Shown: piece after piece, positions 43,678-62,593 of the stretch | How positions within the stretch are numbered: position 1 is the first letter of the stretch | Layout of the letters: each line of letters starts with the position of its first letter | Assembly (NCBI RefSeq): GCF_004346265.1 | Contig: NZ_SMAP01000003.1 | Coordinates: 217,636-281,635 of the forward strand | Direction of reading: 5' to 3' | Origin: Thermomonas haemolytica | GTDB lineage: Bacteria; Pseudomonadota; Gammaproteobacteria; Xanthomonadales; Xanthomonadaceae | DNA length: 64,000 nucleotides | Translations under genes and position numbers: made by a program | Notes under the pieces: model-generated | Seen by the model: the letters and a program-made list of their open reading frames with translations, nothing else | The model's database searches: none | Told to the model about the DNA's origin: nothing

Positions 43678-44364
43678 TCAGGCCGCGCCGGTGGCGGTAT
43701 CCGGATCGGCACCGCCCGTGCCCGCAGCGGCTGGCAGCGGCCAGGCGTTGGCGATCGCGCAGAACAGGCGCGCGGTCTGCAGCGCGTCATACACCGCCGA
43801 ATGCGCTTCCTGCGGATCCCAGCCCAGGCCGGCGGCCATCGCCGCGCGCGCCAGCACGGTCTGGCCGTAGGCGACTCCCGCCAGCGTCACGGTATCGAAC
43901 ACGCTGAACGGGTGGAACGGGTTGCGCTTGTGCTGCACCCGCGCCACCGCGGCATTGAGGAAGCCGAGATCGAAGTGGGCGTTGTGGCCGACCAGGATCG
44001 CGCGCTGGCAGCCGTGCTTCTTCACCGCCGCGCGCACGGGGATGAAGATCGCATCCAGCCCGCTGCGTTCGTCCACTTCGCCGCGCAGCGGATGGCCGAT
44101 CTTGATGCCGGTCACTTCCAGCGATTTCGGGTCGATCGTGGTGCCGGGTGCCGGCGCGATGTGCGCGTGCGCAATCTCGCCGGGGACGAGGCGGCCGGCG
44201 GCATCCAGTTCGATCGGGATGGCGGCGATTTCCAGCAGCGCGTGGCGCTGGCAGTCGAAGCCGCCGGTCTCCACGTCCACCACCACCGGCAGAAAGCCGC
44301 GGAAACGCTGCGCCATCGGCGTGAAGGCGGGCGCATCTGCGGGAGCATTCATGAGATCCGTCAT
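43678..44364 (-). CDS. rnt: ribonuclease T-like DEDDh exonuclease
   Basis: A 3'-5' exonuclease that trims the ends of tRNA and other stable RNAs. The 228-residue protein has all DEDDh active-site residues in order: Asp and Glu in [12 protein letters not shown], Asp in [17 protein letters not shown], and His plus Asp in [15 protein letters not shown]. The conserved [17 protein letters not shown] and [25 protein letters not shown] are characteristic of RNase T rather than of DNA polymerase proofreading subunits. The C-terminal tail is Ala/Gly-rich and disordered. Two in-frame starts lie within 12 codons; I took the upstream ATG. It is convergent with the small membrane protein gene. Confidence 0.9.
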
Positions 44365-44399
44365 CCGCACAGCCTAGCAGAGCCGCCGCGCGCGCCGGC

Positions 44400-45335: not shown

Positions 45336-45382
45336 GGCGAACATGCGGAGGGCTTGGACACTGCCATGGTAGCGAAAGCGTT

Positions 45383-45397
45383 ATCGAGCAGGTCGAT
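45383..45397. promoter_or_regulatory. candidate LysR/OxyR operator dyad
   Basis: The sequence ATCGAGCAGGTCGAT is a perfect 5-bp inverted repeat and contains the LysR T-N11-A motif. In register it reads ATCG-N7-CGAT, the same geometry as the OxyR half-site pair ATAG-N7-CTAT with one change in each arm. It lies 48 bases from the regulator start and about 130 from the persulfide dioxygenase start. A second pair seven bases further on is weak. Confidence 0.5.
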
Positions 45398-45527
45398 CAC
45401 ACAGGACGGAATAATTCGTTTCCCTTGCGCGCGGGACGGGCCTACAGTGCCCCGCATGAACGTCGGCGATGATGCCAGCGACGACACCATCGCACCGTAA
45501 GTCCAGAACGCCACCAAGGAGATCGCC

Positions 45528-46421: not shown

Positions 46422-46460
46422 GTCGCATTTGCCTTCCCATTCCAGCAAGGAGAATCCCCC

Positions 46461-46811: not shown

Positions 46812-46816
46812 GCGCC

Positions 46817-47608: not shown

Positions 47609-47617
47609 GTACCGAGG

Positions 47618-50600
47618 TCATTCCACTGCCGCAGTCGGCGGCGTGCGCGGGCGGCCCTGCAGCACGCACACCAGCGCCGGCAGCAGCAAGAGCACCAGCG
47701 GTACCGCGGCGATCAGGCCGAAGATGATGGCGGTGGCCAGCGGCTGTTGCAGCCCGGCGCCGCGGCTCAGGCCCAGCGCCAGCGGGCTCAGGGTGAGGAT
47801 CGCGATCAGCGCCGACATCAGGATCGGGCGCAGGCGTTTTTCTCCAGCCTCGCGCAAGGCAGTCACTTCGGCTGGCTGTCCGGCGGGCAGTTCGGAGAAA
47901 TAGAACACGATCAGCTCGGTCACCATGCCGACCACCATGGTCAGGCCCATCAGGGCCGACACGTCCAGTTCGATCCCGGTCAGCCACAGGCCGATGAACA
48001 CGGCGCCCGCGCTGAGCAGCACGGTGGCCATCGCCGCCAGCGTCCAGGCGAGGCGCTCGAACAGGAAGGTCAGCAGCAGCGCCGCCAGCAGCAGCGCGGC
48101 GCTGAACACCAGCGTCATGTCCGTAAAGCTCTGTCGCTGCTGCGCATACAGGCCGCCGTACTCGACCCGGATCGTGCCTGGCAGCCGCAGGGATGCCACC
48201 GTCTTGCGCACCTCGGCCATGGCCGAGCCGAGGTCGCGGCCTTCCAGGCGCGCGGTGACGTCGATGAACGGTGCCAGGTCCTCGCGCGTGCGCTGCTGCT
48301 GCCCGGCCACCACCACGACCTGCGCGACCTGGCCCAGGCGCAGGGCGTGCCCGTCGGGCGCCACCAGCGGCAGCTGCGCCAGCTCCGCCGCGCGCGCGCG
48401 CAGGTCGGATGGGCCGCGCACGCGCACGTCCAGCATCTGCTCGCCGACGCGCACCCGGGTCGCCACGTTGCCGCCGACCAGCGCCTCCACCTGGTCGGCC
48501 ACCTGCGCCGGGTCCAGCCCGTGCAGGCGGGCGCGCCCGGCATCGACCCGGATCGCGATCGCGTCGCCGGCCACCCGCAGGCCGTCCACCACCTCGACCA
48601 CGCCGGGGATGCGCGCGATCGCGCCGGCCACCCGCTGCGCGACCGGCGCCAGCTGCGCAGGATCGTCGCCGAACAGCTTGATCTCGATCGGCTGCGGCAC
48701 CGCGGTGAGATCGCCGATGAGGTCCTCCATCAGTTGCGCGGTCTCCACCTGCAGCCCCGGCACCTGGGTGGCGATGCGCTGGCGCAGGTCGGCCATCACC
48801 GCCTCGATCGGGCGTCGGCGCCCGTCCTTGAGGCGGATGAAGTAGTCGCCCTCGTCGGCCTCGGTCAGCCCGCCGCCGAGTTGCAGGCCGGTGCGGCGCG
48901 AATAGCTGGCCACCTCGGGCGTGGCGCGGATCAGCGCCTCGACCTGGCGCAGCAGGCGGTCGGTGTCGGCCAGCGCGGCGCCGGGCTGGGCCTTGTAGTC
49001 GAGGATGAAGCCGCCTTCGTCCATTTTCGGCATGAACCCGGACGGCACCTTGTACCAGGCCAGTCCGCCGGCGATGCCCAGCACCAGCGCCACGCTCGCT
49101 GCGAATCGTCCCGGATGTGCCATCACCGCCCGGAGCGCGCGGTGGTACTGGCGCAGCAGCCAGCCCAGCCAGCCGCCGGCGCGCTCGGCCAGCTCGGCAT
49201 CGCGCGGGCGCAGCCAGTGCGCGCACAGCAGCGGGATCAACAGGCGTGCATACAGCAGCGAGATCACCAGTGCGGCCACCATGGTCACCGCCAGCGCCTT
49301 GAAGAAGCCGCCGCTGACCCCGGCGATGAAGGCCAGCGGCAGGAACACCACGATGGTGGCCCCGGTGGACCCCAGCAGCGGGCGGGTCATCTCCGCGGCG
49401 GCGGCGAGGATGCCCGGCGGCGTGCGCGCGCGGCCTTCCTGCATGCGCCGCATCACGTGCTCGAGCATCACCACCGCATCGTCCACGATCAGGCCGACCG
49501 CGGCGGCCATGCCGCCCAGCGTCATCATGTCGAAGTGCAGGCCCAGCGCATACAGCACCAGGCAGGAGGCGGCCAGCACCGCCGGCAGCACCGCGGCGGT
49601 GATCGCCATCAGCCGCCACGAGCGCAAAAACAGCCACAGCACCAGCCCGGCCAGCAGGGCGCCGAGCAGGATCGCATCGCGCACCGCGCTGGCGGCACCG
49701 ACGACGAGCTCCGACTGGTCGTAGAACGGCGTCACCTTGACGCTCGGCGGCAGCCCCAGGCCGGCCAGGCGCGCCTGTACCTGCTGCACGATGCGCACGG
49801 TGTCGCCGCCCAGGCCCTGGCGCACGTTCACCAGCACCGCGCGGTGGCCGTCGCTGTTGACCAGGGTGTAGTTGGGTGCGCTGGCCGGATGGATGCGCGC
49901 GACATCGCCCAGCGTCACCTGCCCGGCGGCGGCGCTGTCGCCGGACTTGATCGGGATCCGCGCCAGTTCCGCCGGCGTGGCCGGGCGATGTTCGACCAGC
50001 ACCAGATACAGCCGGTGGCGGTCCTGCAGGCGGCCCACGCCGCGCACCAGGTTGGCCTGCGTGAGCGCACGCGCCACGTCGTCGATCGACAGCCCGAGCG
50101 CGGCCAGTTTGGCCGGGTCGACAGCGACCTCGAACTCGCGCGCGGCACCGCCCAGCACGTCCACCCCGGCCACGCCGTCCACCGCGGTCAGGGCCGGGCG
50201 GAGTTTCAGCTCGGCCAGCTGGCGCAGCGCCTGCGGATCGAGGCTGTCGGAGGTCAGGGCCAGCCCCAGCACCGGGAACAGGCTGGGATCGGAGCGCCGC
50301 ACCTCGTAGTCGGTGCCCGGCGGCAGGCGCGAGGCCACCGTGGCCAGCGCCCCCTGCGTGGCCAGCGTGGCCTGCGCCATGTCCTGGCCCCAGGGGAAGT
50401 TCAGGGCGATCTCGGCCGCGCCGCGGCTGGTGGTGGAGCGGATGTGGGTGACGCCGGGCACCGCGCGCAGGGCGATTTCCATCGGCCGGGTGATTTCGGC
50501 CTCCATCTGCGCCGGGTCGCGCTCGCCGGCGTCGATCGCCACCAGGATGCGCGGATAGTCGATCTGCGGGAACAGGCTGACCGGCATCCGCAGCGCGCCG

Positions 50601-50674
50601 ACGATACCGCCCAGGGTGAGCAGCAGCAGCGCCAGCCACAGGCTGCGGGCGTGACGGGTGAGGGCGCTGCTCAT
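47618..50674 (-). CDS. RND efflux transporter permease, CusA/CzcA-like
   Basis: A 1018-residue inner-membrane proton antiporter with the twelve-helix RND layout and two large periplasmic loops. The N-terminus reads SLWLALLLLTLGGIVGALRMPVSLFPQIDYPRI. The TM4 proton-relay region has GLIVDDAVVMLEHVMRR (about residue 395), and TM10 lies near VSALMGLTMVVGMVTELIVFYF. The TM4 Asp-Asp pair is also seen in drug-type pumps, and I do not see the methionine set of CusA, so the metal-versus-organic substrate is open. It is last in a chain of ATGA overlaps that starts at the response regulator, so pump and sensor are one operon. Confidence 0.85.
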   Translation of the reverse strand: MSSALTRHARSLWLALLLLTLGGIVGALRMPVSLFPQIDYPRILVAIDAGERDPAQMEAEITRPMEIALRAVPGVTHIRSTTSRGAAEIALNFPWGQDMAQATLATQGALATVASRLPPGTDYEVRRSDPSLFPVLGLALTSDSLDPQALRQLAELKLRPALTAVDGVAGVDVLGGAAREFEVAVDPAKLAALGLSIDDVARALTQANLVRGVGRLQDRHRLYLVLVEHRPATPAELARIPIKSGDSAAAGQVTLGDVARIHPASAPNYTLVNSDGHRAVLVNVRQGLGGDTVRIVQQVQARLAGLGLPPSVKVTPFYDQSELVVGAASAVRDAILLGALLAGLVLWLFLRSWRLMAITAAVLPAVLAASCLVLYALGLHFDMMTLGGMAAAVGLIVDDAVVMLEHVMRRMQEGRARTPPGILAAAAEMTRPLLGSTGATIVVFLPLAFIAGVSGGFFKALAVTMVAALVISLLYARLLIPLLCAHWLRPRDAELAERAGGWLGWLLRQYHRALRAVMAHPGRFAASVALVLGIAGGLAWYKVPSGFMPKMDEGGFILDYKAQPGAALADTDRLLRQVEALIRATPEVASYSRRTGLQLGGGLTEADEGDYFIRLKDGRRRPIEAVMADLRQRIATQVPGLQVETAQLMEDLIGDLTAVPQPIEIKLFGDDPAQLAPVAQRVAGAIARIPGVVEVVDGLRVAGDAIAIRVDAGRARLHGLDPAQVADQVEALVGGNVATRVRVGEQMLDVRVRGPSDLRARAAELAQLPLVAPDGHALRLGQVAQVVVVAGQQQRTREDLAPFIDVTARLEGRDLGSAMAEVRKTVASLRLPGTIRVEYGGLYAQQRQSFTDMTLVFSAALLLAALLLTFLFERLAWTLAAMATVLLSAGAVFIGLWLTGIELDVSALMGLTMVVGMVTELIVFYFSELPAGQPAEVTALREAGEKRLRPILMSALIAILTLSPLALGLSRGAGLQQPLATAIIFGLIAAVPLVLLLLPALVCVLQGRPRTPPTAAVE

Positions 50675-51705
50675 TGCGTGCGCACCCGCATGCCGTCTTC
50701 CAGCGCGGTGCCGCCGGCGACGACCACCGGCTCGCCCGCGCGCACGCCGGCGAGGATCGCCGCCTGGCGGGCATCCGTCGGCCCCAGCTGCACGTCGCGG
50801 CGCTGGGCGATGCCGTTCTTCACGACATAGACATAGGGCTGTCCGCCATCGTCCAGCAGGGCGGCATAGGGCACCACCACGGCATCGCGCACGCTGGCGA
50901 CCGCCACCCGGGCCGCCAGCGGCTGGCCGGGGCTGGGCGCATACGCGGCCGGGATGTCCACCAGGAAGCTGGCCAGCCGGGTCTGCGGATCGGGCACACG
51001 GCTGAGGCTGCGCACGTTGGCGGAGAAGGATGGACGGCCATCCAGCGGCTGCACCTGCACCGGGGCGCCCACCTGCAGGCTGTCGATCAGCGCCGGGTCG
51101 ATCCCGAACCGCGCCACCCCGGCGCCGACCGCTGCGAGGCTGGCCACCGGCGCGCCGGGCGCGAGCAGGTCGCCGACATTCACCAGCACCCGCTGCACGT
51201 CGCCAGCGGCAGGCGCGCGCAGGTCGAGCTGGGCCAGGCGTGCCTGCAGAGTCGTGCGCTGGGCGTCGGCACTGCGCAGGCGCAGCTGCGCGGCTTCGAT
51301 GTCGGCCTGGCTGCCCAGGCCGTCCGCGCGCAGGCGCTGTGCGCGTGCCAGCGCTTCGCGCGCGGCCTGGGCTTCGGCTTGCGCGGACTGCCATTGCGCG
51401 CGGGTGGCCGGGCTGGGTTGCAGGCGCACGATGCGCTGACCCTGGCGCACGCGGCTGCCGGCAGGGGCGTCGATCGCGGCCACGATCGCCTCGACCGGCG
51501 CGACCAGCATGCGCTGGCTGTCGCTGCCGGCCTCGACCTGGCCATACAGGGTGACGGTCTGCGCCACCGTGCCGCGCTGGGCGGTGGCCGGGGTGACCAG
51601 GGTGCGCGCGGCGGCGGTGCTGGCCTCGGCGTCATCGGCATCGCCGCTGCGCCCGCAGGCGGTCAGCAATAGACACAGCAGGAAAACGGGGAGGCGGTGG
51701 TTCAT
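50671..51705 (-). CDS. RND efflux periplasmic adaptor (membrane fusion) lipoprotein
   Basis: A 344-residue adaptor that links the RND permease to the outer-membrane channel. It has a lipoprotein signal with the lipobox LTAC (Cys17), then a short acidic linker. A biotinyl-lipoyl-like half (VAPVEAIVAAIDAPAGSRVRQGQRIVRL) comes before a coiled coil rich in Ala, Gln, Arg and Glu (about 95-155). The second lipoyl half (LRAPAAGDVQRVLVNVGDLLAPGAPVASLA) follows, with beta-barrel and membrane-proximal domains after it. I see no His- or Met-rich metal-binding tail. It overlaps the permease and TolC genes by four bases each (ATGA). Confidence 0.87.
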   Translation of the reverse strand: MNHRLPVFLLCLLLTACGRSGDADDAEASTAAARTLVTPATAQRGTVAQTVTLYGQVEAGSDSQRMLVAPVEAIVAAIDAPAGSRVRQGQRIVRLQPSPATRAQWQSAQAEAQAAREALARAQRLRADGLGSQADIEAAQLRLRSADAQRTTLQARLAQLDLRAPAAGDVQRVLVNVGDLLAPGAPVASLAAVGAGVARFGIDPALIDSLQVGAPVQVQPLDGRPSFSANVRSLSRVPDPQTRLASFLVDIPAAYAPSPGQPLAARVAVASVRDAVVVPYAALLDDGGQPYVYVVKNGIAQRRDVQLGPTDARQAAILAGVRAGEPVVVAGGTALEDGMRVRTQ

Positions 51706-53054
51706 GGGGTCTCCTCGGTCGGCGCGCCGATCAACAGTTCGAGCGCGATGCGCTGCTCGGCGATGGTTTGCTCCAGTTGCGCCAGCAGCAGGGCGCGGTC
51801 GCGCCAGGCCTGGGCGAGGGCATCGGCCGCGGCCTGCGCCAGGTCGCCGCGATGGGCGGCGGCCTGCGCGGCTTCGGCCTGCATCCGCAGGGCCGGGGCA
51901 TCCGCTTGCGCCGCCGCGCGCTGGCGCAGCGCCAGCAGCAGGGCCTCGCGCGCGCTGGCCAGGTCGGCGCGGGTCTGGAACAGGCGCGCCGCGTATTCCG
52001 CGCGCAGGCTGGCGCGGGTGGCGGTTTCCACCGCGATGTTGCCGCGGCTGCGGTTCCACAGCGGCAGGGTGAAGTCGATCGCCGGCCCCAGCAGCAGGTT
52101 GCCGGCGGAGTCGCGGTTGCCGGTCAGGCTCAGGTTGAGGCTGGGGAACTGCTGCAGGATCGCCTTGTGCAGCGCGGCCTCCTGGGCGTCGTAGCCGGCA
52201 CGCAGCGCGGCCAGGTCGCTGCGCTGCGCGATCGCCTGCGTGAACAGGGCCTCCAGCGGCGCGGGCTGGGCGGCGTTCATGGGCGTATCGGCCAGGGCGA
52301 GCGGGGTCTGCGGCGGCAGCCCGAGCAGCCGGTTGAGGGTCTGGCGCGCGGTCAGCAAATCCTGCTCCAGCGTGCGCAGGCGGGTCTGCGCGTCCAGTAC
52401 CGCCAGCCGCTGCGCCTGCGCCGCCTCGGCTGTGATGTCGCCACGTGCCGCCGCGCGCTGGCTGGCCTCGGCCAGTTGCGCGGCGCTGCGTGCGCTGTCG
52501 CGCAGCGGCGGCAGCTGGCGCTCGTAGGCGCGGATGCGCGCCGCCTGCAGGCGCGCCTGGCCGGCCGCCTGCCATTCCGCCCAGGCCAGGTCCAGACGCA
52601 CGCTGCGCGCCTGCGCGTTCGCCTGGGCGCGGGTCAGCGCGCGCGTGCGCAGGGCATTGAGGTCGAACCCCAGCGCGGCGCTCAGGTTGAGCAGGGTGTC
52701 CGGCCCGCGCAGCACCTTGTCGGCGCCGAGGCTGAAGGTGGGGTCGGGCAGCAGGCCGGCGGCGAAGGCCTGCGCCTCGGCGATCCCGGCGCGAGTGCGC
52801 AGGGCGACCAGGTCGGGGCCGTTGACCACTGCCAGCGTGGCCACCGCGGCATCGTCCAGCGGGGCCTGCAGGTCGATCCGCACCGGGGCCAGCCACGGGC
52901 GCGGGATCGCGTCCGCCCGTGCCTGCAGGATGCTGGCCACCGGCGGTGCCAGCAGGGCGGGGTCGCGTGCCAGCGGCTGCGGCGCGTAGCTGGCGCAGGC
53001 GGCCAGCAGCAGCGCGAGCGCCAGCGCAGGCAGTGGCCGTGCGGATCGGATCAT
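51702..53054 (-). CDS. TolC-family outer-membrane efflux lipoprotein
   Basis: A 450-residue outer-membrane channel of the OEP family. It has a lipoprotein signal with lipobox LAAC (Cys20). Two OEP repeats then follow, each with a strand pair and long Ala-rich helices: LAVVNGPDLVALRTRAGIAEAQAFAAGLLPDPTFS in the first and AIAQRSDLAALRAGYDAQEAALHKAILQQFPSLNLSLTGNRDSAG in the second. The alternating helix pattern continues to a C-terminus without a long tail. With the adaptor and permease it forms a tripartite pump. It overlaps the sensor-kinase stop by four bases. Confidence 0.88.
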   Translation of the reverse strand: MIRSARPLPALALALLLAACASYAPQPLARDPALLAPPVASILQARADAIPRPWLAPVRIDLQAPLDDAAVATLAVVNGPDLVALRTRAGIAEAQAFAAGLLPDPTFSLGADKVLRGPDTLLNLSAALGFDLNALRTRALTRAQANAQARSVRLDLAWAEWQAAGQARLQAARIRAYERQLPPLRDSARSAAQLAEASQRAAARGDITAEAAQAQRLAVLDAQTRLRTLEQDLLTARQTLNRLLGLPPQTPLALADTPMNAAQPAPLEALFTQAIAQRSDLAALRAGYDAQEAALHKAILQQFPSLNLSLTGNRDSAGNLLLGPAIDFTLPLWNRSRGNIAVETATRASLRAEYAARLFQTRADLASAREALLLALRQRAAAQADAPALRMQAEAAQAAAHRGDLAQAAADALAQAWRDRALLLAQLEQTIAEQRIALELLIGAPTEETP

Positions 53055-54439
53055 GGATGGATCTCCGTGGAATCACGATACGGCGGCAGGAGGAGGCAGG
53101 CGCGCAGGCCGGGGGCGGCATCCTCCAGTTGCAGCTGGCCGGCGTGCGCCTGCGTGATCGCCTCGACCAGGCTCAGGCCGAGGCCGTGGCCGGGCGTGCT
53201 GCGCGAGGCTTCCAGCCGCACGAAGCGCTGGCGCACGCGTGCGCGGTCGGCGGCCGGGATGCCGGGGCCGTGGTCGCGCACGCAGACCGTGATGGTGCCG
53301 CTGTCGGGCTCGGCGGCGATCCCGGCGCGCAGCTCCACCCGGCAGCCGGAAGGCGTGTGGCGCAGCGCGTTCTCGACCAGGTTCAGCACCGCCTGCGCCA
53401 GCAGCTGGCGGTCGCCGCGCACGCGCAACTCCGGCGCGATCGCAGCGGAAAAGACATGCCCGCTGTCTTCGGCCAGCGGCTGCAGGCTGTCGGCCAGCTC
53501 GGCCAGCAGCGCGCTCAGGTCGAGCACGCTAAAGCCCTTGGCCAGTTGCCCGGCATCGACTTCGGCGATCCGCAGGATCGCATCGAACAGCGCCAGCACC
53601 TCGTCGGTATGCGCCTGCGCGGCTTCGATCCGCGCCTGCCGCTGCGCCGGGTCGGATTCGTCGTGCAGGGCTTCCAGCTGGTTGCGCAGATGCATCAGCG
53701 GGGTGCGCAGGTCGTGGGCGAGATCCGCGCTGACCTGGCGCAGGTTTTCGACCAGCGCGGCGATGCGGTCGAGCATTGCGTTCAGCGAGGCGGCCACGCG
53801 GTCGAATTCATCGCCGGCGGCGGTGATGGCGGCGCGTTGGTTCAGGTCGCCATGCAGCACCGCCGCGGTGGTGCGATCCAGCGGCTGCAGGCGGCGACGC
53901 AGGTAGCGCGCCAGCAGCAAGGCCGCCAGCAGGCCGAGCCCGAACAGCGCGACCAATGCCATGGCAAACACGCCCAGCAGGGTGCGGTCGATGGTTTCCA
54001 GCGCCTCCAGATCGGCCGCGACCACCAGCCGGTTGCCGTCCGGCAGGGCGCTGACCAGGGCCAGGGCCGGGTCGGGCCCTTCGCGCGGGTCGCGCAGCAG
54101 GATCTTCTGCCAGCCGAGCGCCGCGGGCGGCGCGGTCTCGATGTTGCCGCCCAGCCGGCGGCCATCGGCGGCGAACAGGGCGGCGCCTTGCGGGATCGGC
54201 CCGGCACCGTGCAGGCGCGCCATCACCTGCATCAGGCCGCGCGCGCCATCGTTGCGGTAATCGGTTTGCAGGGTGTCCGACAGCTGCGCCAGGTTCGCCG
54301 CGATCTGCCGTTGCAGGGCGGCGTGGGTCGCGTAATAGACGGCGATGCCCAGCGGCAGCAGCGCCGCCGCATAGATCAGCAGGCCGATGAGCGCGATCCG
54401 GCGCGCCGCGCTGCGCGGCAGCAGGCGTATGCGGCTCAT
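53051..54439 (-). CDS. sensor histidine kinase of a two-component system
   Basis: A 462-residue membrane kinase. Two transmembrane helices (about 14-36 and 155-178) enclose a periplasmic sensor of some 118 residues with no His or Cys cluster. A HAMP region and the dimerisation/phosphoacceptor domain with His242 in SADLAHDLRTPLMHL follow. The ATPase domain has its N, G1 and G2 boxes (NLVENALRHTPSG, DHGPGIP, GHGLGLSLVEAI). The type is close to the CzcS/CusS/QseC group. It presumably senses a periplasmic metal or stress signal and controls the pump encoded downstream. ATGA overlaps join it to the regulator and to the TolC gene. Confidence 0.92.
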   Translation of the reverse strand: MSRIRLLPRSAARRIALIGLLIYAAALLPLGIAVYYATHAALQRQIAANLAQLSDTLQTDYRNDGARGLMQVMARLHGAGPIPQGAALFAADGRRLGGNIETAPPAALGWQKILLRDPREGPDPALALVSALPDGNRLVVAADLEALETIDRTLLGVFAMALVALFGLGLLAALLLARYLRRRLQPLDRTTAAVLHGDLNQRAAITAAGDEFDRVAASLNAMLDRIAALVENLRQVSADLAHDLRTPLMHLRNQLEALHDESDPAQRQARIEAAQAHTDEVLALFDAILRIAEVDAGQLAKGFSVLDLSALLAELADSLQPLAEDSGHVFSAAIAPELRVRGDRQLLAQAVLNLVENALRHTPSGCRVELRAGIAAEPDSGTITVCVRDHGPGIPAADRARVRQRFVRLEASRSTPGHGLGLSLVEAITQAHAGQLQLEDAAPGLRACLLLPPYRDSTEIHP

Positions 54440-55110
54440 GCACGCACCCGATAGCCCGCGCCGCGCGCGGTTTCGATCGCGTCGCTCGCAAAGCCGTCGT
54501 TGAGCTTGGCGCGCAGGCGGCTCATGTGGGTCTCCACGATCTTGGTCTGCGGGTCGAAATGGAAGTCCCACACGCGCTCGAGCAGCATGGTGCGGGTGAC
54601 GAACTGGCCGGCGTTGCGCAGCAGTTCTTCCAGCAGCCGGAACTCGCGCGGCTGCAGCGCGATGAGGCGGCCCTCGCGGTGCACTTCGCGGCGCAGCAGG
54701 TCCATCTCGATCCCATCCGCCCGCAGCACGGTGGCGACGCTGGCCGGTGCGCGCCGGCGCGCCAGCGCCTGCACCCGCGCGGCCAGCTCGCTGAAGGCGA
54801 ACGGCTTGACCAGGTAATCGTCGGCGCCGGCCTGCAGGCCGTCCACGCGGTCCTCGATCCGGCCCAGTGCGGTCAGCAGCAGGGCGGGCGTGCTGATCTC
54901 CGCGGCGCGCAGGCGCTTGAGCACGCTCAGCCCGTCCAGCCCCGGCAGCATGCGGTCGAGCACGATCACATCCAATGCCTCGCTCAGGCCCAGGTGCAGC
55001 GCGTCCTCGCCGCGTTCGGCGGCAAGGACGTTGTGGCCCTGCTCGCGCAAGGCGCGCTCCACGAACTGGCGGGTGTCGGGGTCGTCCTCGGCGAGCAGGA
55101 TGCGCAGCAT
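54436..55110 (-). CDS. OmpR/PhoB-family response regulator
   Basis: A 224-residue regulator with a receiver domain (acidic pocket Glu8, Asp9, Asp10; phosphoacceptor Asp52 in VIVLDRMLPGLDG; Lys in YLVKPFAF). A C-terminal winged helix follows (LLRREVHREGRLIALQPREFRLLEELLRNAGQFVTR, then KIVETHMSRLRAKL). It is the partner of the adjacent kinase. It begins seven bases after the PepSY gene, so the operon runs PepSY, regulator, kinase, TolC, adaptor and permease. A direct repeat of GTTTCC with 17-base spacing lies upstream of the PepSY gene and is a candidate site. Confidence 0.94.
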   Translation of the reverse strand: MLRILLAEDDPDTRQFVERALREQGHNVLAAERGEDALHLGLSEALDVIVLDRMLPGLDGLSVLKRLRAAEISTPALLLTALGRIEDRVDGLQAGADDYLVKPFAFSELAARVQALARRRAPASVATVLRADGIEMDLLRREVHREGRLIALQPREFRLLEELLRNAGQFVTRTMLLERVWDFHFDPQTKIVETHMSRLRAKLNDGFASDAIETARGAGYRVRA

Positions 55111-55117
55111 GATGGCG

Positions 55118-55423
55118 TCAGTCGCGGTCGGCGTCGGCTTCGAACTTGTCTTCGACGATCTTGCCGGTGGCCACGTCCACGCCGATCTCGTGGACCTGGC
55201 CGGGCTTGCCCTCCTGGCGGATGTCGAAGGAATAGCGCAGGGCGCCGTTTTCCTTCTCGCGCTCTTCCTTGACGATCTTGCCGGGCGCGGCCTGAAGCGC
55301 GATCGCGCGCGCCTGCGCCAGGCTGATGCCACCGGCTGGCGCGGCGGGCGGATTGCCGGCGAGGGCGCCGGCGGCGAATGCAGCAAGGACGGACAGCAGG
55401 GCGGTGCGGGACAGGGTGTGCAT
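55118..55423 (-). CDS. periplasmic PepSY-domain protein
   Basis: A 101-residue exported protein: signal peptide (cleavage likely after AAGALAG, about residue 23), then one PepSY-type domain. The core runs ISLAQARAIALQAAPGKIVKEEREKENGALRYSFDIRQEGKPGQVHEIGVDVATGKIVEDK, of the usual PepSY length. Short PepSY proteins often accompany OmpR-type regulators for metal and antimicrobial-peptide response, and may modulate the kinase or bind the signal. An AAGGAG site fixes the ATG. It heads the efflux operon. Confidence 0.88.
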   Translation of the reverse strand: MHTLSRTALLSVLAAFAAGALAGNPPAAPAGGISLAQARAIALQAAPGKIVKEEREKENGALRYSFDIRQEGKPGQVHEIGVDVATGKIVEDKFEADADRD

Positions 55424-55489
55424 GGTCAAGCTCCTTGGGAGGGGTGGATGGAACGCCCTCCATGCTGCCCAAGGGTAGTGCGCGCGGCG

Positions 55490-55537: not shown

Positions 55538-56290
55538 TCACTCTTCTCGACCGGCTGCACGCCACACCAGCACGCCTTCCTGGCGCAACCGCGCCAGCAT
55601 CGGCAGGGCCTCGCGGAGGACCGCGGCGGTATCGGGCTGGCCGGCTTCTGCGGCCAGTTGCAGCAGCAGCGCGCGGCTGCTGTGCGTGGTGTTGCCGTCT
55701 GCCCGTTCCAGCAGGCAGTACAGCAGCGGCGAGAGCTGCGCGAAGTGCACGCATCCGGCCTCGTCACGGCGCAACAGCAGCAGGGTGGGCTGCGCGGGCG
55801 GGGTGGTCGGCTGGAAGCCGGGGCCGATCTGCTGCACCGGCCAGCGGTAGGCGCGCGGCCAGGCCAGCGGGGAGAGCTGCGGGATGCCGTCGAGCAGGTC
55901 GGCGTCCGGCGTATGCGGCGGTGGAGTGGCGTCCGCCAGTTGCAGGCCGAGTTCGGCCCATTCGTAGTCGGCCAGCTCCGCCAGCCAGGGCCGCGCCGGG
56001 TCTTCGATGTTGGCAAGGAACGCGGTGAACTCCCGCCCCAGCTGCGGGAACAGCGGGGTGCGGCTGTGGTGTTCGCGCAGGAAGCGTTCCAGCAGCGCGG
56101 ACCAGTCGCGCGGGCCCAGCGTGGTGCGCAGCACCGGGAAGGTGCCGCCGAGCAGGGTGGCGAGGGTGTTGCGCACCAGCTTGCGGTACACCCGCAGGCG
56201 GCGTTCGGGGATCCCGGGCGGGCCGGGATGGGTGGCGGGGTCGCGCACGTGCGCGGCCAGCGCGTGCAGTTGTGCGTGCAGCGCGCTCAT
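55538..56290 (-). CDS. DUF2063 partner protein of the MNIO enzyme (HvfC/BufC-like)
   Basis: A 250-residue protein with an N-terminal DUF2063 domain (about 5-95; [25 protein letters not shown], then [24 protein letters not shown]) and a less conserved C-terminal winged-helix-like part ([29 protein letters not shown]). In characterised clusters this partner, fused or separate, brings the precursor peptide to the DUF692 oxidative enzyme, as MbnC, TglI-type and HvfC proteins do. The start overlaps the stop of the enzyme gene by four bases (ATGA). It is last in the three-gene unit, so enzyme and recognition partner are made together. Confidence 0.86.
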
Positions 56291-57111
56291 GGGTACCCGG
56301 CCTGCAGGCGGCGGATATGCGCCACTTCCTCCAGCAGCACCGGCAGCGGCGGGAAGTTGAAGTCGCGCTCGAGCAGGGTGGGGCGCACGCCGTGGGTGGC
56401 ATAGGCGAAGTCGAGCAGCGCCCAGACGTCGTCCTTCACGCTGGCGCCGTGGGTGTCGATCTTGAGCCCGTCGGGCTCGTCGTCATGGCCGGCGATGTGG
56501 TAGCCGGCGATGCGCTCGCCCGGCAGGGCGGCGATGTAGGCGCGCGCGTGGAAGCCGTGGTTGGCGGCGTTGACGTACACATTGTTGACGTCGAGCAGCA
56601 GGTCGCAATCGGCCTCTGCCAGCACCGCGCGTACAAACGTCGCCTCGTCCATCTCCGCGGCCGGAACCGCATAGGTGCTCACGTTCTCGACCGCGATCCG
56701 CCGTCCGAGCACGTCCTGCGCCTGGCGGATGCGCGCGGCGACATGGCGCACGGCCTCCTCGGTATGCGGCAGCGGCAGCAGGTCGTACAGATGGCCACCG
56801 GCCGCGCAGTAGCTGAGGTGCTCACTGTAGAGCGCGGCATGGTGGCGGTCGAGGAAGGCGCGGGTCTGGCGCAGCAGGTCCAGATCCAGCGGATCGGGGC
56901 CGCCGAGCGAGAGCGACAGCCCGTGGCCGCTCAGCGGGTGGCGCGCCGTGAGTTGCGCCAGTTTGTCGGCAAACACGCCGCCCACCCCGATCCAGTTGTC
57001 GGGCGCGCATTCCAGGAAATCGAAGGCGCCCGCGGGCGCTGTGATCAGGTCATCCAGCAGGGCGCGGCGCAGGCCGAGGCCGGCGCTATGCGCGGGCAAG
57101 GGGGCAGGCAT
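56287..57111 (-). CDS. DUF692 multinuclear iron oxidative enzyme (HvfB/BufB-like)
   Basis: A 274-residue TIM-barrel enzyme of the MNIO family (DUF692), which uses two or three iron ions and O2 to modify cysteines in RiPP precursors. Metal-site motifs are all in place: [11 protein letters not shown] (61-71), YSEHLSYC (95-102), VENVSTY (141-147), [13 protein letters not shown] (174-186), YHIAGHDD (204-211), DTHGASV (219-225) and [10 protein letters not shown] (247-256). It should therefore be catalytic. The six-base gap from the upstream Cys-rich precursor gene and the coupled DUF2063 partner define it as an HvfB-like maturase. Its likely targets are the cysteines in the EGKCG repeats. Confidence 0.9.
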
Positions 57112-57117
57112 GCCGGC

Positions 57118-57585
57118 TCACATGCTGCCGCACATGCCCTCGCCGCATTTGCCTTCCCCGCACTTGCCTTCGCCTGCGGCCTTGGTCTCCGCCGCGGGCT
57201 TCTGCATGGCCGCGTGGTGGGCGTCCATCTCGGCCTGGCTGATGAAGCCGTCGCCATTGGTGTCGATCTTGGCGAACATCGCGTCCTGACCCTTGTGCGC
57301 GGCTGCGAATTCGGCGCGCGAGATGCGGCCGTCCTTGTCGGTGTCCATCTTCGCCATGCCGCAGCCGCCTTCGTGGTCGGCCTTGGCGCTGGCCATCTTG
57401 CCGGCGCCGCACTTGCCCTCGCCGCCGCATTTGCCTTCGCCAGCCTTGTTGGTCGCGGGTTTGGCGGCGTCCTGCATGTAGCCGTGGGCGAGCGCGTCCA
57501 TCGAGAACAGGCTGCCGCTGGCAAGGGTGCCGGTGGCGACGGCGGCGCCGATCAGCAGCGACAGCGGGGTGCGCGGATGGGACAT
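57118..57585 (-). CDS. EGKCG-repeat, EF-hand-containing RiPP precursor (HvfA-like)
   Basis: A 155-residue exported protein, probably the substrate of the adjacent MNIO enzyme. A signal peptide (cleavage near MDALA, about residue 33) is followed by EGKCG at 50-54 and 56-60 and by EGGCG at 72-76. Two EF-hand loops, DTDKDGRISRAE at 81-92 and DTNGDGFISQAE at 108-119, lie in the middle. Another three motifs end the protein: EGKCG at 139-143 and 144-148, EGMCG at 149-153. All six cysteines (53, 59, 75, 142, 147, 152) sit in these pentapeptides. Haemophilus HvfA has EGKCG motifs that become oxazolone/thioamide copper ligands; that precursor has no EF-hands known to me. The RBS (AGGAG) is good. Confidence 0.85.
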   Translation of the reverse strand: MSHPRTPLSLLIGAAVATGTLASGSLFSMDALAHGYMQDAAKPATNKAGEGKCGGEGKCGAGKMASAKADHEGGCGMAKMDTDKDGRISRAEFAAAHKGQDAMFAKIDTNGDGFISQAEMDAHHAAMQKPAAETKAAGEGKCGEGKCGEGMCGSM

Positions 57586-57669
57586 GGCAAAGCTCCTGCC
57601 AGTAGTTTCGGGAGCCCCGATCCTACCCCCGGCGGCGGCCGGCGGCCAGCGCGCCGCCGGCAGGGCGGG

Positions 57670-58374
57670 TCAGGCCACCGTGGTGTTGCTGTCGTCGCGC
57701 TTCTCGCGCTCCGGCAGCGGGGTCTCGCCGTGCAGCAGGAACCAGATGTTCTCGGCGATGTTGGTGGCGTGGTCGCCGATCCGTTCCAGGTTCTTGGCCA
57801 TGAACAGCAGGTGCGTGCACGGGGTGATCGCGCGCGGGTCTTCCATCATGTAGGTGAGCAGCTCGCGGAACAGGCCGGTATAGAGCGTATCCAGCTCGGC
57901 ATCGCGCGCACGCACGCGCAGCGCGGCCTCGCCATCGCGGTGGCGATAGGCCTCCAACACGTCGCGCACCTGCTGCACCGCCAGCTTGCCGAGCGCGTTC
58001 AGGCCGCGGGTGTGCGGCAGCGGTGGCGACAGGTTGAGCGCCAGCGAGCGCTTGGCGATGTTGGCGGCGTAGTCGCCGATGCGCTCGATGTCCGAGGCCA
58101 CCCGCAGGGCGGCCAGGATGATGCGCAGGTCGGTGGCCAGCGGGCCGCGCCGGATCAGGTGGATCACGTCGTGGTTGACCTGCTGCTCCAGCGCGTCGAT
58201 CGCCTCGTCGTTGGCGATCACGCGCTCGGCGGCGTTGCCGTCGCGGCGTTCCACCACGTCCAGCGCGGCCTCCAGCTGCGCGGCCGACATCTGGCCCATG
58301 CGGATCAGTTCGTCGAGCAGGGTGGCCTGCTCCTGGTCGTAGCTGCGGACGATGTGACTGCTTTGCTCGTTCAT
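57670..58374 (-). CDS. phoU: phosphate transport accessory protein PhoU
   Basis: A 234-residue helical protein that links the Pst transporter to the PhoR/PhoB system and keeps the regulon off when phosphate is ample. It consists of two repeats of a three-helix bundle with the metal-binding motifs. The first holds RVASDIERIGDYAANIAKR and the second LLFMAKNLERIGDHATNIAENIW. That is the usual PhoU size. It lies 58 bases after pstB and is last in the pstC-pstA-pstB-phoU unit. phoB and phoR are not in the window. Confidence 0.95.
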   Translation of the reverse strand: MNEQSSHIVRSYDQEQATLLDELIRMGQMSAAQLEAALDVVERRDGNAAERVIANDEAIDALEQQVNHDVIHLIRRGPLATDLRIILAALRVASDIERIGDYAANIAKRSLALNLSPPLPHTRGLNALGKLAVQQVRDVLEAYRHRDGEAALRVRARDAELDTLYTGLFRELLTYMMEDPRAITPCTHLLFMAKNLERIGDHATNIAENIWFLLHGETPLPEREKRDDSNTTVA

Positions 58375-58432
58375 AGGGGTTCCTGTCCTTCCCGCGGGGA
58401 GGCGCGCCGCATGGCGCGGAAGGGGTCTCGGA

Positions 58433-59272
58433 TCAGCCAAACCGACCGGTGATGTAATCCTCGGTCTGCTGCTTGGTCGGATTGGAGAAGATCTGCGCGG
58501 TGCTGCCGTGCTCGACCAGATCGCCCAGGTACATGAAGGCGGTGTAGTCGGACACGCGCGCCGCCTGCTGCATGTTGTGGGTCACGATCATGATGGTGAA
58601 GGTCTGCTTCAGCTCTTCCACCAACTGCTCGATGCGGCTGGTGGAGATCGGGTCCAGCGCCGAGGTGGGTTCGTCCAGCAGCAGCACTTCCGGGCGCAGC
58701 GCGATCGCGCGCGCGATGCACAGGCGCTGCTGCTGGCCGCCGGACAGGCCCAGGCCGCTGGCCTTGAGCTTGTCCTTCACCTCGTCCCACAGCGCGGCCT
58801 GGCGCAGCGCCTGCTCCACGCGGTCGTCCATCTCCGAACGCGACAGCCGCTCGTGGTGGCGGATGCCGTAGGCGACGTTCTCGTAGATCGTCATCGGGAA
58901 CGGCACCGGCTTCTGGAATACCATGCCGACCTTGCTGCGCAGGCGGTTGATCGGGTATTTCGGGTCCAGCACGTTGTCGCCGTCCAGCAGCACCTGCCCT
59001 TCCGCGCGCAGCTTGGGGTAGAGCGCGTAGATGCGGTTGAACACCCGCAGCAGGGTGGACTTGCCGCAGCCGGACGGGCCGATCAACGCGGTGACGCGCT
59101 TCTCGGGGATGTCGAGGTCGATGTTCTTGACCGCGTGGAACTTGTCGTACCAGAAGTTCAGGCCGCGCGCGGCGATCTTGGGGGGCGGCAGCGCGGCTGC
59201 CCCGGCATTGTGGTCGGCGGGCATGGCCGCGGCGTACGAGGAAGACATCGGTATGGTCCGCAGGTCAGTCAT
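58433..59272 (-). CDS. pstB: phosphate ABC transporter ATP-binding protein PstB
   Basis: It energises phosphate uptake through PstA and PstC. The 279-residue protein is a full ABC ATPase: Walker [10 protein letters not shown], the PstB-specific [22 protein letters not shown], signature [15 protein letters not shown], Walker [14 protein letters not shown] and the switch histidine in IVTHNMQQA. The first 30 residues extend beyond usual PstB proteins, so the true start may be an ATG eight codons later; I kept the first ATG because it overlaps the pstA stop by eight bases, as expected in a coupled operon. Confidence 0.96.
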
Positions 59273-60125
59273 GGGTCAGTTTGTTGCGCAGGACGATGGC
59301 GCGTGCGATCAGGCTGATGGCCAGCACGAACAGGGTGAGGATGAAGGCGCCGGCCCAGGCCAGGGCGTGCCAGCCGTCGTACGGGCTCATCGCGAACTGG
59401 AAGATCACCACCGGCACGTTGGCCATCGGCGCCAGCAGGTTGGTGGTCCAGTACTGGTTGTTGAGCGCGGTGAACAGCAGCGGCGCGGTTTCGCCGCTGA
59501 TGCGCGCCAGCGCCAGCAGGATGCCGGTGACGATGCCCGGCATCGCGCTGCGATAGAGCACCTGCAGGGTCACCTTCCACTGCGGAACGCCGAGCGACAG
59601 CGCGGCCTCGCGCATCTGCCCGGGCACCAGGCGCAGCATCTCGTCGGTGGTGCGCACCACCACCGGCAGCACGATGAAGGCCAGCGCGATGCCGCCGGCC
59701 AGCGCCGAGAAGTGGCCCATCTGCGCCACCACCAGGGTATAGACGAACAGGCCCAGCACGATCGAGGGCGCCGACAGCAGGATGTCGTTGACGAAACGCA
59801 CGGTTTCGCCCAGCCAGTGGCGGTTGGCGTATTCGGCCAGGTAGGTGCCGGCCAGGACGCCGATCGGCGCGCCGATGGCGATGCCCATCAGGCTGATCAC
59901 GGCGCTGCCGAAGAAGGCGTTGAGCAGGCCGCCGCCTTCCTCGCCCGGCGGTGGCGTCATCTCGGTGAACAGCGCCGGGCTGATCGCGCTGATGCCCGTA
60001 CGCAGCGTGGTCCACATGATCCAGATCAACCAGAACATGCCGAACAGGGTGGCGGCGGTGGCAAACAGCTGGGCGAGGACGTTCTTGAACGCGCGCCAGC
60101 GGTGCAGGGAGGTGGACGCGGCCAT
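59265..60125 (-). CDS. pstA: phosphate ABC transporter permease PstA
   Basis: A 286-residue inner-membrane permease with six helices. The cytoplasmic ABC-coupling loop lies around [49 protein letters not shown], which contains the permease EAA-type motif and the PstA-specific SGETAPLLF. It forms the channel with PstC. The ATG shares one base with the pstC stop, and the pstB start lies within its last codons. Sequence length and hydrophobic pattern are ordinary for the family. Confidence 0.95.
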
Positions 60126-61093
60126 CAGTGGCCCTCCTGGCGGTTGAGCCGGCGCAGCATCAGGCGCGCGATCGTGAGCACGACGAAGGTGAGCATGAAC
60201 AGCACGAAGCCGAGCGCGATCAGGGCCGACAGGTACATCTTGGAGTCCGCTTCGGTGAATTCGTTGGCGATGGTGGCGGCGATCGAGTTGCCCGGCTCCA
60301 GCAGCGAGAACGTCAGCGAGTGCGCGTTGCCGAGCACGAACGTCACCGCCATGGTCTCGCCGAGGGCGCGGCCAAGGCCGAGGAAGATGCCGCCGATCAC
60401 CGCCGAGCGGGTATAGGGCAGGACGACGTCCCAGGCCACTTCCCAGCGGGTCGCGCCGAGCGCGTAGGCGGATTCCTTCAGCGGGCCGGGGACGGTGAGG
60501 AAGACTTCGCGCATCACCGAGGCGACGAAGGGAATCACCATGATCCCCAGCACCAGGCCGGCGGTGCCCATGCCCAGGCCCAGCGGCGGGCCGCTGAACA
60601 GCATGCCGATGCCGGGCAGCTGGCCCAGGTGTTCGTCCACCCACGGGAACACATGCTCACCCAGCAGCGGGGCCAGCACGAACAGGCCCCACATGCCGTA
60701 GATGATCGAGGGAATGCCGGCCAACAGTTCGATGGCGGCGCCGACCGGCGCGCGCAGCCAGCGCGGCGCGATCTCGGTCAGGAAGAAGGCGATGCCGAAG
60801 CTGACCGGGACTGCGATCAGCATGGCGATGACCGCGGTCACGATGGTGCCGTAGATCGGAACCAACGCGCCGAACTGCTGCTGCACCGCGTCCCACTGGT
60901 CGGTCCAGAAGAAGGCCAGGCCGAACTTTGCGAACGCCTGGCGGCCGCCCCACAGCATCGACAGGGCCGCAGCGGTCAGGCCGAGCAGCACGATCATGCC
61001 GGCGGTGGTCACCAGCCAGCGGAAACGGGTGTCGGCGCGCAGGTCGGCGTGCTCGCGGCGGGTCAGGTCAATGCTGTCGGGGGTGGCATTCAT
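60125..61093 (-). CDS. pstC: phosphate ABC transporter permease PstC
   Basis: A 322-residue inner-membrane permease that pairs with PstA. A first helix (about 28-50) is followed by a periplasmic loop and the conserved core LAGIPSIIYGMWGLFVLAP. The coupling loop has KESAYALGATRWEVAWDVVLPYTRSAVIGGIFLGLGRALGETMAVTFVLGN. A Pho box lies 122 to 139 bases upstream of the start, just past the pstS terminator, so pstC has its own PhoB-controlled promoter. This fits a separate pstCAB-phoU transcript. Confidence 0.95.
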   Translation of the reverse strand: MNATPDSIDLTRREHADLRADTRFRWLVTTAGMIVLLGLTAAALSMLWGGRQAFAKFGLAFFWTDQWDAVQQQFGALVPIYGTIVTAVIAMLIAVPVSFGIAFFLTEIAPRWLRAPVGAAIELLAGIPSIIYGMWGLFVLAPLLGEHVFPWVDEHLGQLPGIGMLFSGPPLGLGMGTAGLVLGIMVIPFVASVMREVFLTVPGPLKESAYALGATRWEVAWDVVLPYTRSAVIGGIFLGLGRALGETMAVTFVLGNAHSLTFSLLEPGNSIAATIANEFTEADSKMYLSALIALGFVLFMLTFVVLTIARLMLRRLNRQEGH

Positions 61094-61214
61094 GCGTCGG
61101 GTCTACTGCTGTACCGGCGGCGCGGCAAACGTGGCCGGCTTCGGTGGGAGAGCCGGGCCAGGGACGATGGGCGGGAAAGGCGGCAACGCGTGGTCGCCAT
61201 GAAACGCTGTTTTT

Positions 61215-61232
61215 GTGACAGCTTCGTGACAT
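61215..61232 (-). promoter_or_regulatory. Pho box upstream of pstC
   Basis: The minus strand reads ATGTCACGAAGCTGTCAC, two 7-base PhoB half-sites four bases apart. They match the consensus CTGTCAT at five and six of seven positions. The 11-base period is as expected. It lies five bases downstream of the pstS terminator T run and upstream of pstC. Confidence 0.75.
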
Positions 61233-61236
61233 CCGC

Positions 61237-61271
61237 AAAAAATGAAGAGGCGGGGTCATGCACCCCGCCTC
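61237..61271 (-). terminator. rho-independent terminator of pstS
   Basis: A 10-bp perfect stem (GAGGCGGGGT with its complement) closes a five-base loop. On the minus strand it is followed by TTCATTTTTT. It begins 20 bases after the pstS stop. Confidence 0.88.
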
Positions 61272-61290
61272 TCCGGAGCCGCACGATGGC

Positions 61291-62313
61291 TTACTTGGCG
61301 CCGATGTTCTGCGCCCAGTAGCCCTCGATCTGCTTCACCAGCGAGGCCGGCAGCGGCACATAGTCCAGCGAGGTCGCCTGCGGCTGGCCGTTTTCCAGCG
61401 CCCACTTGAAGAAGTCCAGGGCCTGGCGGGTGCGCGCGGCATCCTTGGGCTTCTTGTACATCATCACGAAGGTGGTGGCGGCGATCGGCCAGGCATTGGC
61501 GCCCGGGGCATTGGTGATGACCAGGTCGAAATCCTGGGTGGCACCCCAGTTGGCATTGGCGGCCGCGGCCTGGAAGGTGTCGTCGCTGGGCTTGACGAAG
61601 TTGCCGGCGGCGTTCTTCATCAGCGCGTAGGTCAGCTTGTTCTGCAGGGCGTAGGCGTACTCCACGTAGCCAATGCCGCCGCGGATCTGGCGGGAATAGG
61701 CGGCCACGCCTTCATTGCCCTTGCCGCCGACGCCGGCCGGCCACGCCACCGAGGTGCCCTCGCCGACCTTCTGCTTCCATTCCGGGCTGACCTTGGACAG
61801 GTAGTTGGTGAAGTTGAAGGTGGTGCCCGAGCCGTCGGAGCGATGGACCACGGTGATCTTCATGTCCGGCAGCTTCAGGCCGGGATTCAGCGCGGCGATG
61901 CGGGCGTCGTTCCATTTGGTGATCTTGCCGAGGTAGATGTCGGCCAGGATCGGGCCATCGATCTTCATCGCGCCCGGCGCCACGCCCGGCAGGTTCACCA
62001 CCGGCACGATGCCGCCGATCACGATCGGGAACTGCGCCAGCCCGGCCTGCTTGAGTTCCGCCGGAGGCAGCGGCTTGTCGGAGGCGCCGAAGTCCACGGT
62101 GGCCGCCTTGATCTGGGCGATGCCGCCGCCGGAGCCGATCGACTGGTAGTTGATCTTGTTGCCGGTCTTGGCGTTGTAGTCGGCGGACCACTTCGACAGG
62201 ATCGGGTAGACGAAGGTCGAGCCGGCGCCGGTGATGTCGGCCGCGAACGCGGAGCCGGCAACGCTGGTCGCCACGGCGAGCACGACGAGGCGGGACTTGA
62301 GGGACTTGAGCAC
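61291..62313 (-). CDS. pstS: phosphate ABC transporter substrate-binding protein PstS
   Basis: The periplasmic phosphate-binding protein that feeds PstCA. The 340-residue product has a signal peptide (MLKSLKSRLVVLAVATSVAGSAFA). The mature domain has the phosphate-binding loops: ITGAGSTFVYPILSKW, IGSGGGIAQI, DFGASDKPLP and VVHRSDGSGTTFNFTNYLS. A GTG start is chosen because an AAGGAG site stands seven bases before it; no ATG in the region gives a signal peptide. It is followed by its own terminator. A row of PhoB half-sites lies 50 to 104 bases upstream. Confidence 0.95.
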   Translation of the reverse strand: MLKSLKSRLVVLAVATSVAGSAFAADITGAGSTFVYPILSKWSADYNAKTGNKINYQSIGSGGGIAQIKAATVDFGASDKPLPPAELKQAGLAQFPIVIGGIVPVVNLPGVAPGAMKIDGPILADIYLGKITKWNDARIAALNPGLKLPDMKITVVHRSDGSGTTFNFTNYLSKVSPEWKQKVGEGTSVAWPAGVGGKGNEGVAAYSRQIRGGIGYVEYAYALQNKLTYALMKNAAGNFVKPSDDTFQAAAANANWGATQDFDLVITNAPGANAWPIAATTFVMMYKKPKDAARTRQALDFFKWALENGQPQATSLDYVPLPASLVKQIEGYWAQNIGAK

Positions 62314-62362
62314 GGAAAACTCCTTGGGTCTGGGATGACGGCGGCAGCGCCGCACGCCGGCA

Positions 62363-62417
62363 TTGGACGGCAGTGCGGTGACAAGGTTGCGGCGTAAATA
62401 TGACGATCGAATGACAG
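62363..62417 (-). promoter_or_regulatory. array of Pho-box half-sites upstream of pstS
   Basis: On the minus strand a Pho box CTGTCAT-TCGA-TCGTCAT (62417-62400) is a seven-of-seven and five-of-seven match to the consensus. The 11-base register continues: after one poor unit come TTGTCAC-CGCA-CTGCCGT (62384-62367), five matches in each half. Thus five consecutive 11-base units, four of them recognisable, lie between pstS and the divergent porin gene. Confidence 0.75.
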
Positions 62418-62593
62418 GCCGCCATTCCCGCCGTTTGGGGAGGCGAGCGTGAAAAAAAGCGTGAGGCCGACATAAACCTGCAATGAATCCGCATTGAAAT
62501 AGCACCCCGGCACGGGCATTGGCCGCAGCCGGCGCGTGCAGCACCTCAACGCCTTCCTCTTCTCTTCCATCCGTCATCCACTGGAGTCTTTCC

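Follow-up and report, generated by a model that had tools for sequence, protein, structure and literature searches.

An HvfABC-type cluster of Thermomonas haemolytica whose precursor carries two EF-hands between two EGxCG cysteine blocks

Organization of the locus

The window analysed here, a whole stretch of 64,000 nucleotides of Thermomonas haemolytica, contains three tightly packed genes for a Cys-rich precursor, an MNIO maturase and an HvfC-family partner (Table 1). In the precursor, the pentapeptides EGKCG, EGKCG and EGGCG precede two EF-hand loops (DTDKDGRISRAE and DTNGDGFISQAE), which are followed by EGKCG, EGKCG and EGMCG. All six cysteines fall within these EGxCG motifs, three on each side of the EF-hand pair. 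A hydrophobic stretch is seen by eye at the N-terminus, and the protein is probably exported. The MNIO gene begins 6 bases past the precursor stop, and a 4-base overlap (ATGA) joins it to the gene of the HvfC family.

Table 1. Features of the precursor cluster and its surroundings, with positions in the window
Feature	Position	Strand	Details and basis
Precursor gene (HvfA/EfhP-like)	57118..57585	(-)	155 aa; N-terminal stretch resembling a signal peptide, by sequence inspection
N-terminal cysteine block EGKCG-G-EGKCG ... EGGCG	57358..57438	(-)	Residues 50-76; sequence and alignment
EF-hand loop 1 DTDKDGRISRAE	57310..57345	(-)	Residues 81-92; sequence and Pfam
EF-hand loop 2 DTNGDGFISQAE	57229..57264	(-)	Residues 108-119; sequence and Pfam
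C-terminal cysteine block EGKCG-EGKCG-EGMCG	57127..57171	(-)	Residues 139-153; sequence
MNIO maturase, HvfB family	56287..57111	(-)	PF05114, 333.8 bits; NF003818, 401.6 bits; relative 3BWW
HvfC-family partner, DUF2063 + NGO1945_C	55538..56290	(-)	Pfam; NF050145; distant relative of 3DEE
phoU, end of pst-phoU cluster directly upstream of precursor	57670..58440	(-)	PhoU in Pfam
Promoter-like GGTAGGATCG element upstream of precursor	57618..57627	(-)	Predicted; sequence
rnt-like gene, RNase_T domain	43681..44373	(-)	Stop-to-stop frame; synteny anchor

The EF-hand_5 family of Pfam is matched twice in the precursor (45.6 bits, cut-off 25.9). The whole protein also passes the HvfA-family model NF050137 of NCBIfam (27.7 bits, cut-off 19.5), with its best stretch in the C-terminal block (residues 132-150) and no single stretch reaching an E-value of 0.001. 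Both loops are canonical (DxDxDG and DxNxDG) and, in an alignment of 43 sequences, D81 and E92 of loop 1 and D108, G113 and E119 of loop 2 are invariant, among them the EF-hand ligand positions D1 and E12 of each loop. The starts of the two loops are 27 residues apart, and because this spacing is shorter than the 36 residues of calmodulin, the EF-hand core fold is not assured.

The MNIO scores above the cut-off of the HvfB model of NCBIfam (401.6 against 360 bits) and below that of the BufB model (271.2 against 310 bits), and its closest solved relative is the DUF692 protein 3BWW (E 1.1e-68), to which residues 9-273 align in two pieces. The partner exceeds the cut-off of the HvfC model NF050145 (265.1 against 142 bits) and is distantly related to 3DEE (E 1e-11). 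The DoxX-type fourth gene of the HvfABCD arrangement is not found at the locus, as the single DoxX match of the genome lies on another contig (C7), beside a BufB-type MNIO. Such a gene would be unnecessary for a cluster of this kind, since the fon cluster also lacks DoxX. The BufB-type MNIO and the DoxX match belong to a second MNIO cluster of the same genome (L001, G000 C7:132715-133509), whose small Cys-containing protein has no NCBIfam match.

The original prediction for this locus, which described a Cys-rich exported protein with three EGxCG motifs on either side of two EF-hand loops and every cysteine in a motif, was accurate in both coordinates and anatomy. The enzyme that it placed six bases after the precursor and the coupled DUF2063 partner are confirmed by PF05114 and by the HvfB and HvfC models, and the absence of a DoxX-type hvfD that it reported also holds.

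Readthrough of the precursor stop codon into the MNIO, which lies in the same frame at that short distance, was considered and rejected, the feature not being conserved: the stops of the relatives vary among TGA, TAA and TAG. In L112 (G239 C44) and L030/L116, precursor and MNIO are read without an intervening stop as a single open frame (465 residues), either as a natural fusion of substrate and enzyme or as a draft error, and a Met is kept at the usual start of the MNIO.

Genomic surroundings

A pst-phoU cluster (window 57670-62860) precedes the precursor cluster on the same strand. Of 87 family loci with motifs, 78 likewise have a PhoU match upstream in the same orientation, and the median gap from PhoU to the precursor is about 250 bases (80 loci with a PhoU match, starts estimated). 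The words phosphate, pst and phoU are absent from PMC12452194. At the position of the predicted GGTAGGATCG element, TAGGAT or TAGCAT was seen by eye in 23 of the 25 loci of the genus, including motif-free ones. On the other side of the cluster, about 11 kb (window 44374-55430) separate hvfC from the rnt-like gene, the two being adjoining in seven of eight relatives of the genus compared. This region contains a PepSY protein, a two-component pair whose best matches are of the heavy-metal type but under the cut-off, RND efflux genes and a LysR regulator. The PepSY and two-component genes were rejected as members of the system, a PepSY match being found solely in the window's own locus. Carriage by plasmids was also discarded: 72,556 plasmid records gave one weak match, to the EF-hands only.

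Distribution of the two-sided precursor

EF-hands and motifs were counted with simple search expressions, in which the first motif residue varied between counts: E only for the genus and class counts and for the ranges of motif number, and E, Q or D for the counts in the 90 family loci, the named loci, the MNIO tree, the stop codons and the His tails.

The precursor was matched at E<=1e-5 in 192 of 247 genomes of the family, plain EF-hand proteins included. Ninety loci were taken as the best-scoring by rank (30 + 60, one near-duplicate genome skipped), a choice that favours proteins resembling the query, and 82 of them are two-sided, two have motifs only before the EF-hands, three only after them, and three are motif-free. 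The two-sided arrangement, found in 82 of 90 relatives, is more than chance. The two arms are not strictly required, since the block stands on one side in five of the 87 motif-bearing loci. An MNIO adjoins the precursor in all 87, and HvfC lies beside 86, the remaining one (L074) being at a contig end. A single tblastn query, which did detect DoxX in L224, found it in none of the 87. The homologue search proposed with the original prediction, for proteins that keep an EF-hand pair and flanking repeats next to an MNIO, has a positive answer. Two-sided proteins carry from one to six motifs before the EF-hands and from one to nine after them. The N-terminal block is missing in L037, L045 and L071, and in the last two a His-rich stretch, recognized by eye, stands in its place.

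In a wider search of the class, 13 of 369 genomes gave a match at E<=1e-12, three inside the family and ten outside. Among the latter, seven are two-sided (from five families), one has a single block, and the remaining two are EF-hand proteins that lack cysteines. An MNIO adjoins five of these seven two-sided matches; in the other two genomes (G289 and G325) it lies elsewhere. The two-armed form is common in one bacterial family, and it occurs in five further gammaproteobacterial families.

A third set comprises the best 80 of at least 179 confirmed named loci, obtained with a search pattern that demanded a double motif. Among these best 80, 37 are two-sided and 43 carry the block only before the EF-hands. 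In Pseudomonas the latter form accounts for 37 of 41 loci of this same set, in contrast to the two-sided protein described here. Single loci of Rheinheimera, Steroidobacter and Stenotrophomonas are also N-only, and Lysobacterales are otherwise two-sided, again among the best 80. Thirty of these 80 best loci have no MNIO match in the stretch around the gene. When 15 such loci (14 genomes) were checked genome-wide, an MNIO was found elsewhere in 14 of 14 genomes. Pseudomonas L183, L185, L188 and L194, among others, have an EGKCG/EF-hand gene without a neighbouring MNIO match, and those genomes that were checked have an MNIO elsewhere. Modification in trans is possible for these Pseudomonas loci.

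A quick tree built from 79 MNIO rows places 15 of the 18 N-only rows in a single group, together with two two-sided rows; the SH-aLRT of this group is 88, under the star mark, and at least six changes between arm forms are required. The direction of arm gain or loss on this midpoint-rooted tree is a suggestion only. A lipoprotein-like protein of a Bacteroidales MAG (L234:3949-4906) alternates cysteine motifs, EF-hands, cysteine motifs and EF-hands before a cysteine tail, and no MNIO match was found within the stretch around its gene.

Presence and absence of the cluster within one genus

The EF-hand protein was matched in all 25 genomes of the genus (probably Thermomonas). In 18 of them it bears EGxCG motifs and an MNIO lies next to it; in the other seven it has no motif. 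An MNIO of the HvfB type is absent from these seven: four have no MNIO match at all, and three (G183, G150 and G167) have the BufB type only, their four MNIOs scoring above the BufB cut-off and below the HvfB one. In a separate check of eight genomes, which took in G289 and G325 as well as two with cysteine-free EF-hand matches (G495 and G595), all eight had an MNIO. Since G183, G150 and G167 have one as well, its presence in a genome is common and not diagnostic alone. In the motif-free proteins both EF-hand loops are intact (7/7), and the residual cysteines of three of them (one or two) lie within the signal-peptide region.

The rnt-like gene lies directly after hvfC in seven of the eight motif-bearing stretches compared (in L096 it was not found there within the stretch), and directly after the EF-hand gene in all seven motif-free genomes; phoU precedes the EF-hand gene in the motif-free L058, L069 and L327. 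This matching order of neighbours indicates that the locus is the same in motif-bearing and motif-free genomes. The simplest reading would be that a deletion of hvfBC, together with the loss of the motifs, gave rise to the motif-free form. A gyrB tree of 24 of the 25 genomes (gyrB is split in G614 and partial in G618, and several rows keep untrimmed upstream residues) requires three changes, two of them forced by well-supported branches.

The C-terminal tails also differ. Two or three His residues are present among the last eight in 7/7 motif-free proteins versus 0/18 motif-bearing members of the genus, with too few independent losses for significance. No motif-bearing family locus shows at least two (0/85, a set that overlaps the 18 and leaves out the fused L030). 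This comparison shows that the cysteine blocks and the MNIO with its partner are gained or lost together and that the EF-hand core does not depend on them; the tails tend to carry either Cys or His as metal ligands. The persistence of the EF-hands without motifs in seven genomes suggests a separate function for the calcium-binding part.

Discussion

EF-hand-bearing EGKCG precursors, whose prior description the original prediction had named as counting against it, are in fact a described MNIO-associated class, the Buf_EGKCG|EF-hand_5 chimaeras (PMC12452194), so that a categorically new class of precursor is ruled out by the published work (PMC12452194, PMC4053335, PMC11559002, PMC9132961). As in those chimaeras, the Thermomonas protein has a short EGKCG domain followed by two EF-hand_5 and associated MNIO genes. 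Members of the class have a signal peptide or a transmembrane helix ahead of the EGKCG domain, for which the hydrophobic N-terminal stretch seen here is a candidate. The fusions are, however, described with EF-hands at the C-terminus of the EGKCG domain, and the text available of the same four papers does not mention a block after the EF-hands. Because three EGxCG motifs stand there, the present precursor is a variant outside the one-armed subtype to which most Pseudomonas relatives belong. What stands of the claimed novelty is thus the narrower part, EF-hands between two cysteine blocks.

The member of the class with bench work is EfhP (PA4107) of Pseudomonas aeruginosa, cited by PMC12452194 in discussing EF-hand fusions and encoded in an apparent operon with PA4106 (DUF692) and PA4105 (DUF2063) (PMC4053335). 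The two proteins share two canonical EF-hands, EGKCG repeats (four in EfhP; PMC11559002), a signal peptide (predicted in EfhP, putative here) and DUF692 and DUF2063 neighbours, which at the Thermomonas locus also lie directly downstream. EfhP binds Ca2+ selectively with a Kd of 13.7 uM and rearranges upon binding (PMC9132961). It differs in being reported as a Ca2+/iron regulator, not a copper buffer: it regulates Ca2+-dependent iron-uptake genes, and its authors propose dual Ca2+/Fe sensing via the EGKCG cysteines (PMC11559002, PMC9132961). The text available of the EfhP papers (PMC4053335, PMC9132961, PMC11559002) mentions no modification of EfhP and does not describe its DUF692 neighbour as acting on those cysteines.

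The HvfABC (oxazolin), FonABC (fontiphorin) and MmrABC (bulbicupramide) systems share with this locus the EGKCG repeats, the MNIO and the DUF2063 partner, and the last two are likewise described as A-B-C clusters; in contrast, no EF-hands are mentioned in the descriptions available. The modification of HvfA, for which the original prediction had cited oxazolone/thioamide groups, is now assigned as 5-thiooxazole (PMC13097082; PMC13419390), a published chemistry that replaces the earlier product, and the thiooxazoles of MmrA are assigned tentatively (PMC12538549). RiPPs with 5-thiooxazole on Cys are known as captophorins, and the present protein is a candidate member of that group. Copper binding has been reported for the EGKCG products HvfA, FonA and MmrA (PMC13097082, PMC12538549, PMC13419390). 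The bufferins BufA1 and BufA2 are signal-peptide-bearing, Cys-rich MNIO substrates tied to copper protection (PMC12452194), but they have another motif and a BufB-type enzyme, and the Thermomonas genome keeps a separate BufB-type cluster with DoxX.

The reading favoured here, with moderate confidence, is that of a periplasmic core folded by Ca2+ and bearing two thiooxazole metal-binding arms. The precursor, with its Sec-type signal peptide as judged from the sequence, would be synthesised in the cytosol, where the HvfB-type MNIO and its HvfC partner would oxidise the EGxCG cysteines, most likely to 5-thiooxazoles by analogy with HvfA, FonA and MmrA. At the low Ca2+ of the cytosol the EF-hand pair would probably be unfolded, leaving both blocks reachable as a plain chain. 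After export, periplasmic Ca2+ would occupy both EF-hands, if the affinity of EfhP is a guide, and fold a compact core from which the two arms would project. These arms may constitute a periplasmic buffer for a soft metal, most likely Cu(I), a copper specificity that would be carried over from the relatives. The function of the core would be separable from the arms, as relatives without hvfBC and motifs keep the EF-hands and a His-rich tail. The fact that the HvfA, HvfB and HvfC models all exceed their cut-offs supports this reading, as do the joint absence of HvfB-type MNIO and motifs within the genus and the MNIO present elsewhere in 14 of 14 genomes whose EGKCG/EF-hand genes have no MNIO neighbour. 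The HvfABC-type cluster of the original prediction, with a probably exported and probably modified metal-binding protein, is well supported, the joint absence in relatives being part of that support.

Whether calcium controls the arms is a finer point. Calcium may gate the binding of metal, as the original prediction contemplated, but the persistence of the EF-hands without motifs can be read as independence and weakens it. A tentative alternative, with an appreciable chance and close in likelihood to gating, is a modular protein in which EF-hands and modified blocks are independent, so that calcium has no part in gating the metal arms or in their arrangement. On both sides of a core that stays, arms occur, are missing or vary in size, and C-only, N-only and motif-free forms exist, as such modularity would predict; the two-sided form of 82 of 90 family loci across deep divergence, on the contrary, makes placement seem to matter. 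A further possibility, rather doubtful but not negligible, is that the protein acts mainly as a periplasmic Ca2+ sensor in the manner of EfhP. Its cysteine blocks would then serve not as a buffer but as an additional input, from iron, copper or redox state, through which its signalling to partners is adjusted. The same-class EfhP, with its Ca2+-induced rearrangement, control of Ca2+-dependent iron-uptake genes and proposed dual sensing, speaks for it and weakens the reading as a copper buffer, and the EF-hands kept without motifs in seven members of the genus agree with it. However, the Thermomonas protein has no known partner or regulated gene, the fluid number of motifs is more in keeping with a buffer than with an exact sensor, and EGKCG products of other species are reported to bind copper. 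More speculative, and unlikely as a whole, is the idea that the conserved element is an EF-hand hub, folded by Ca2+, whose arms can be exchanged. In its usual form, two-sided thiooxazole arms made by the enzyme would be folded together only after export, and copper binding would depend on Ca2+; lineages losing hvfBC would swap in His-rich arms, and EfhP would be a reduced member with a single arm, modified by the MNIO, on which its Ca2+ signalling would depend.

Two other readings carry little weight. Unmodified, metallothionein-like cysteines, with an MNIO acting on another substrate, are very improbable given the joint lack of enzyme and motifs in at least two separate lineages, the MNIO found beside all 87 precursors with motifs in the family, and the reported modification of the same motif in HvfA, FonA and MmrA. 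Binding of another ion by the EF-hands, for example a lanthanide instead of Ca2+, seems more improbable still. In lanmodulin the EF-hand loop has a Pro at position 2, which is lacking in the canonical loops of the precursor. The lanmodulin model NF053806 is matched weakly (20.2 bits, far below the cut-off of 135), and lanmodulin chains do give matches of similar length over the EF-hand pair, but EfhP is reported to be Ca2+-selective (PMC9132961).

In any case, while the broad class of EF-hand and EGKCG precursors is known, the placement of the EF-hands between two cysteine blocks was not found in the published text available. The two-armed precursor links the field of thiooxazole metallophores with that of bacterial EF-hand signalling, and a genus in which the same locus occurs with and without the enzyme offers a natural experiment on what the modification adds. 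Finally, the EF-hand pair may illustrate a way for a protein to be modified in the cytosol as an open chain and to fold after its export.
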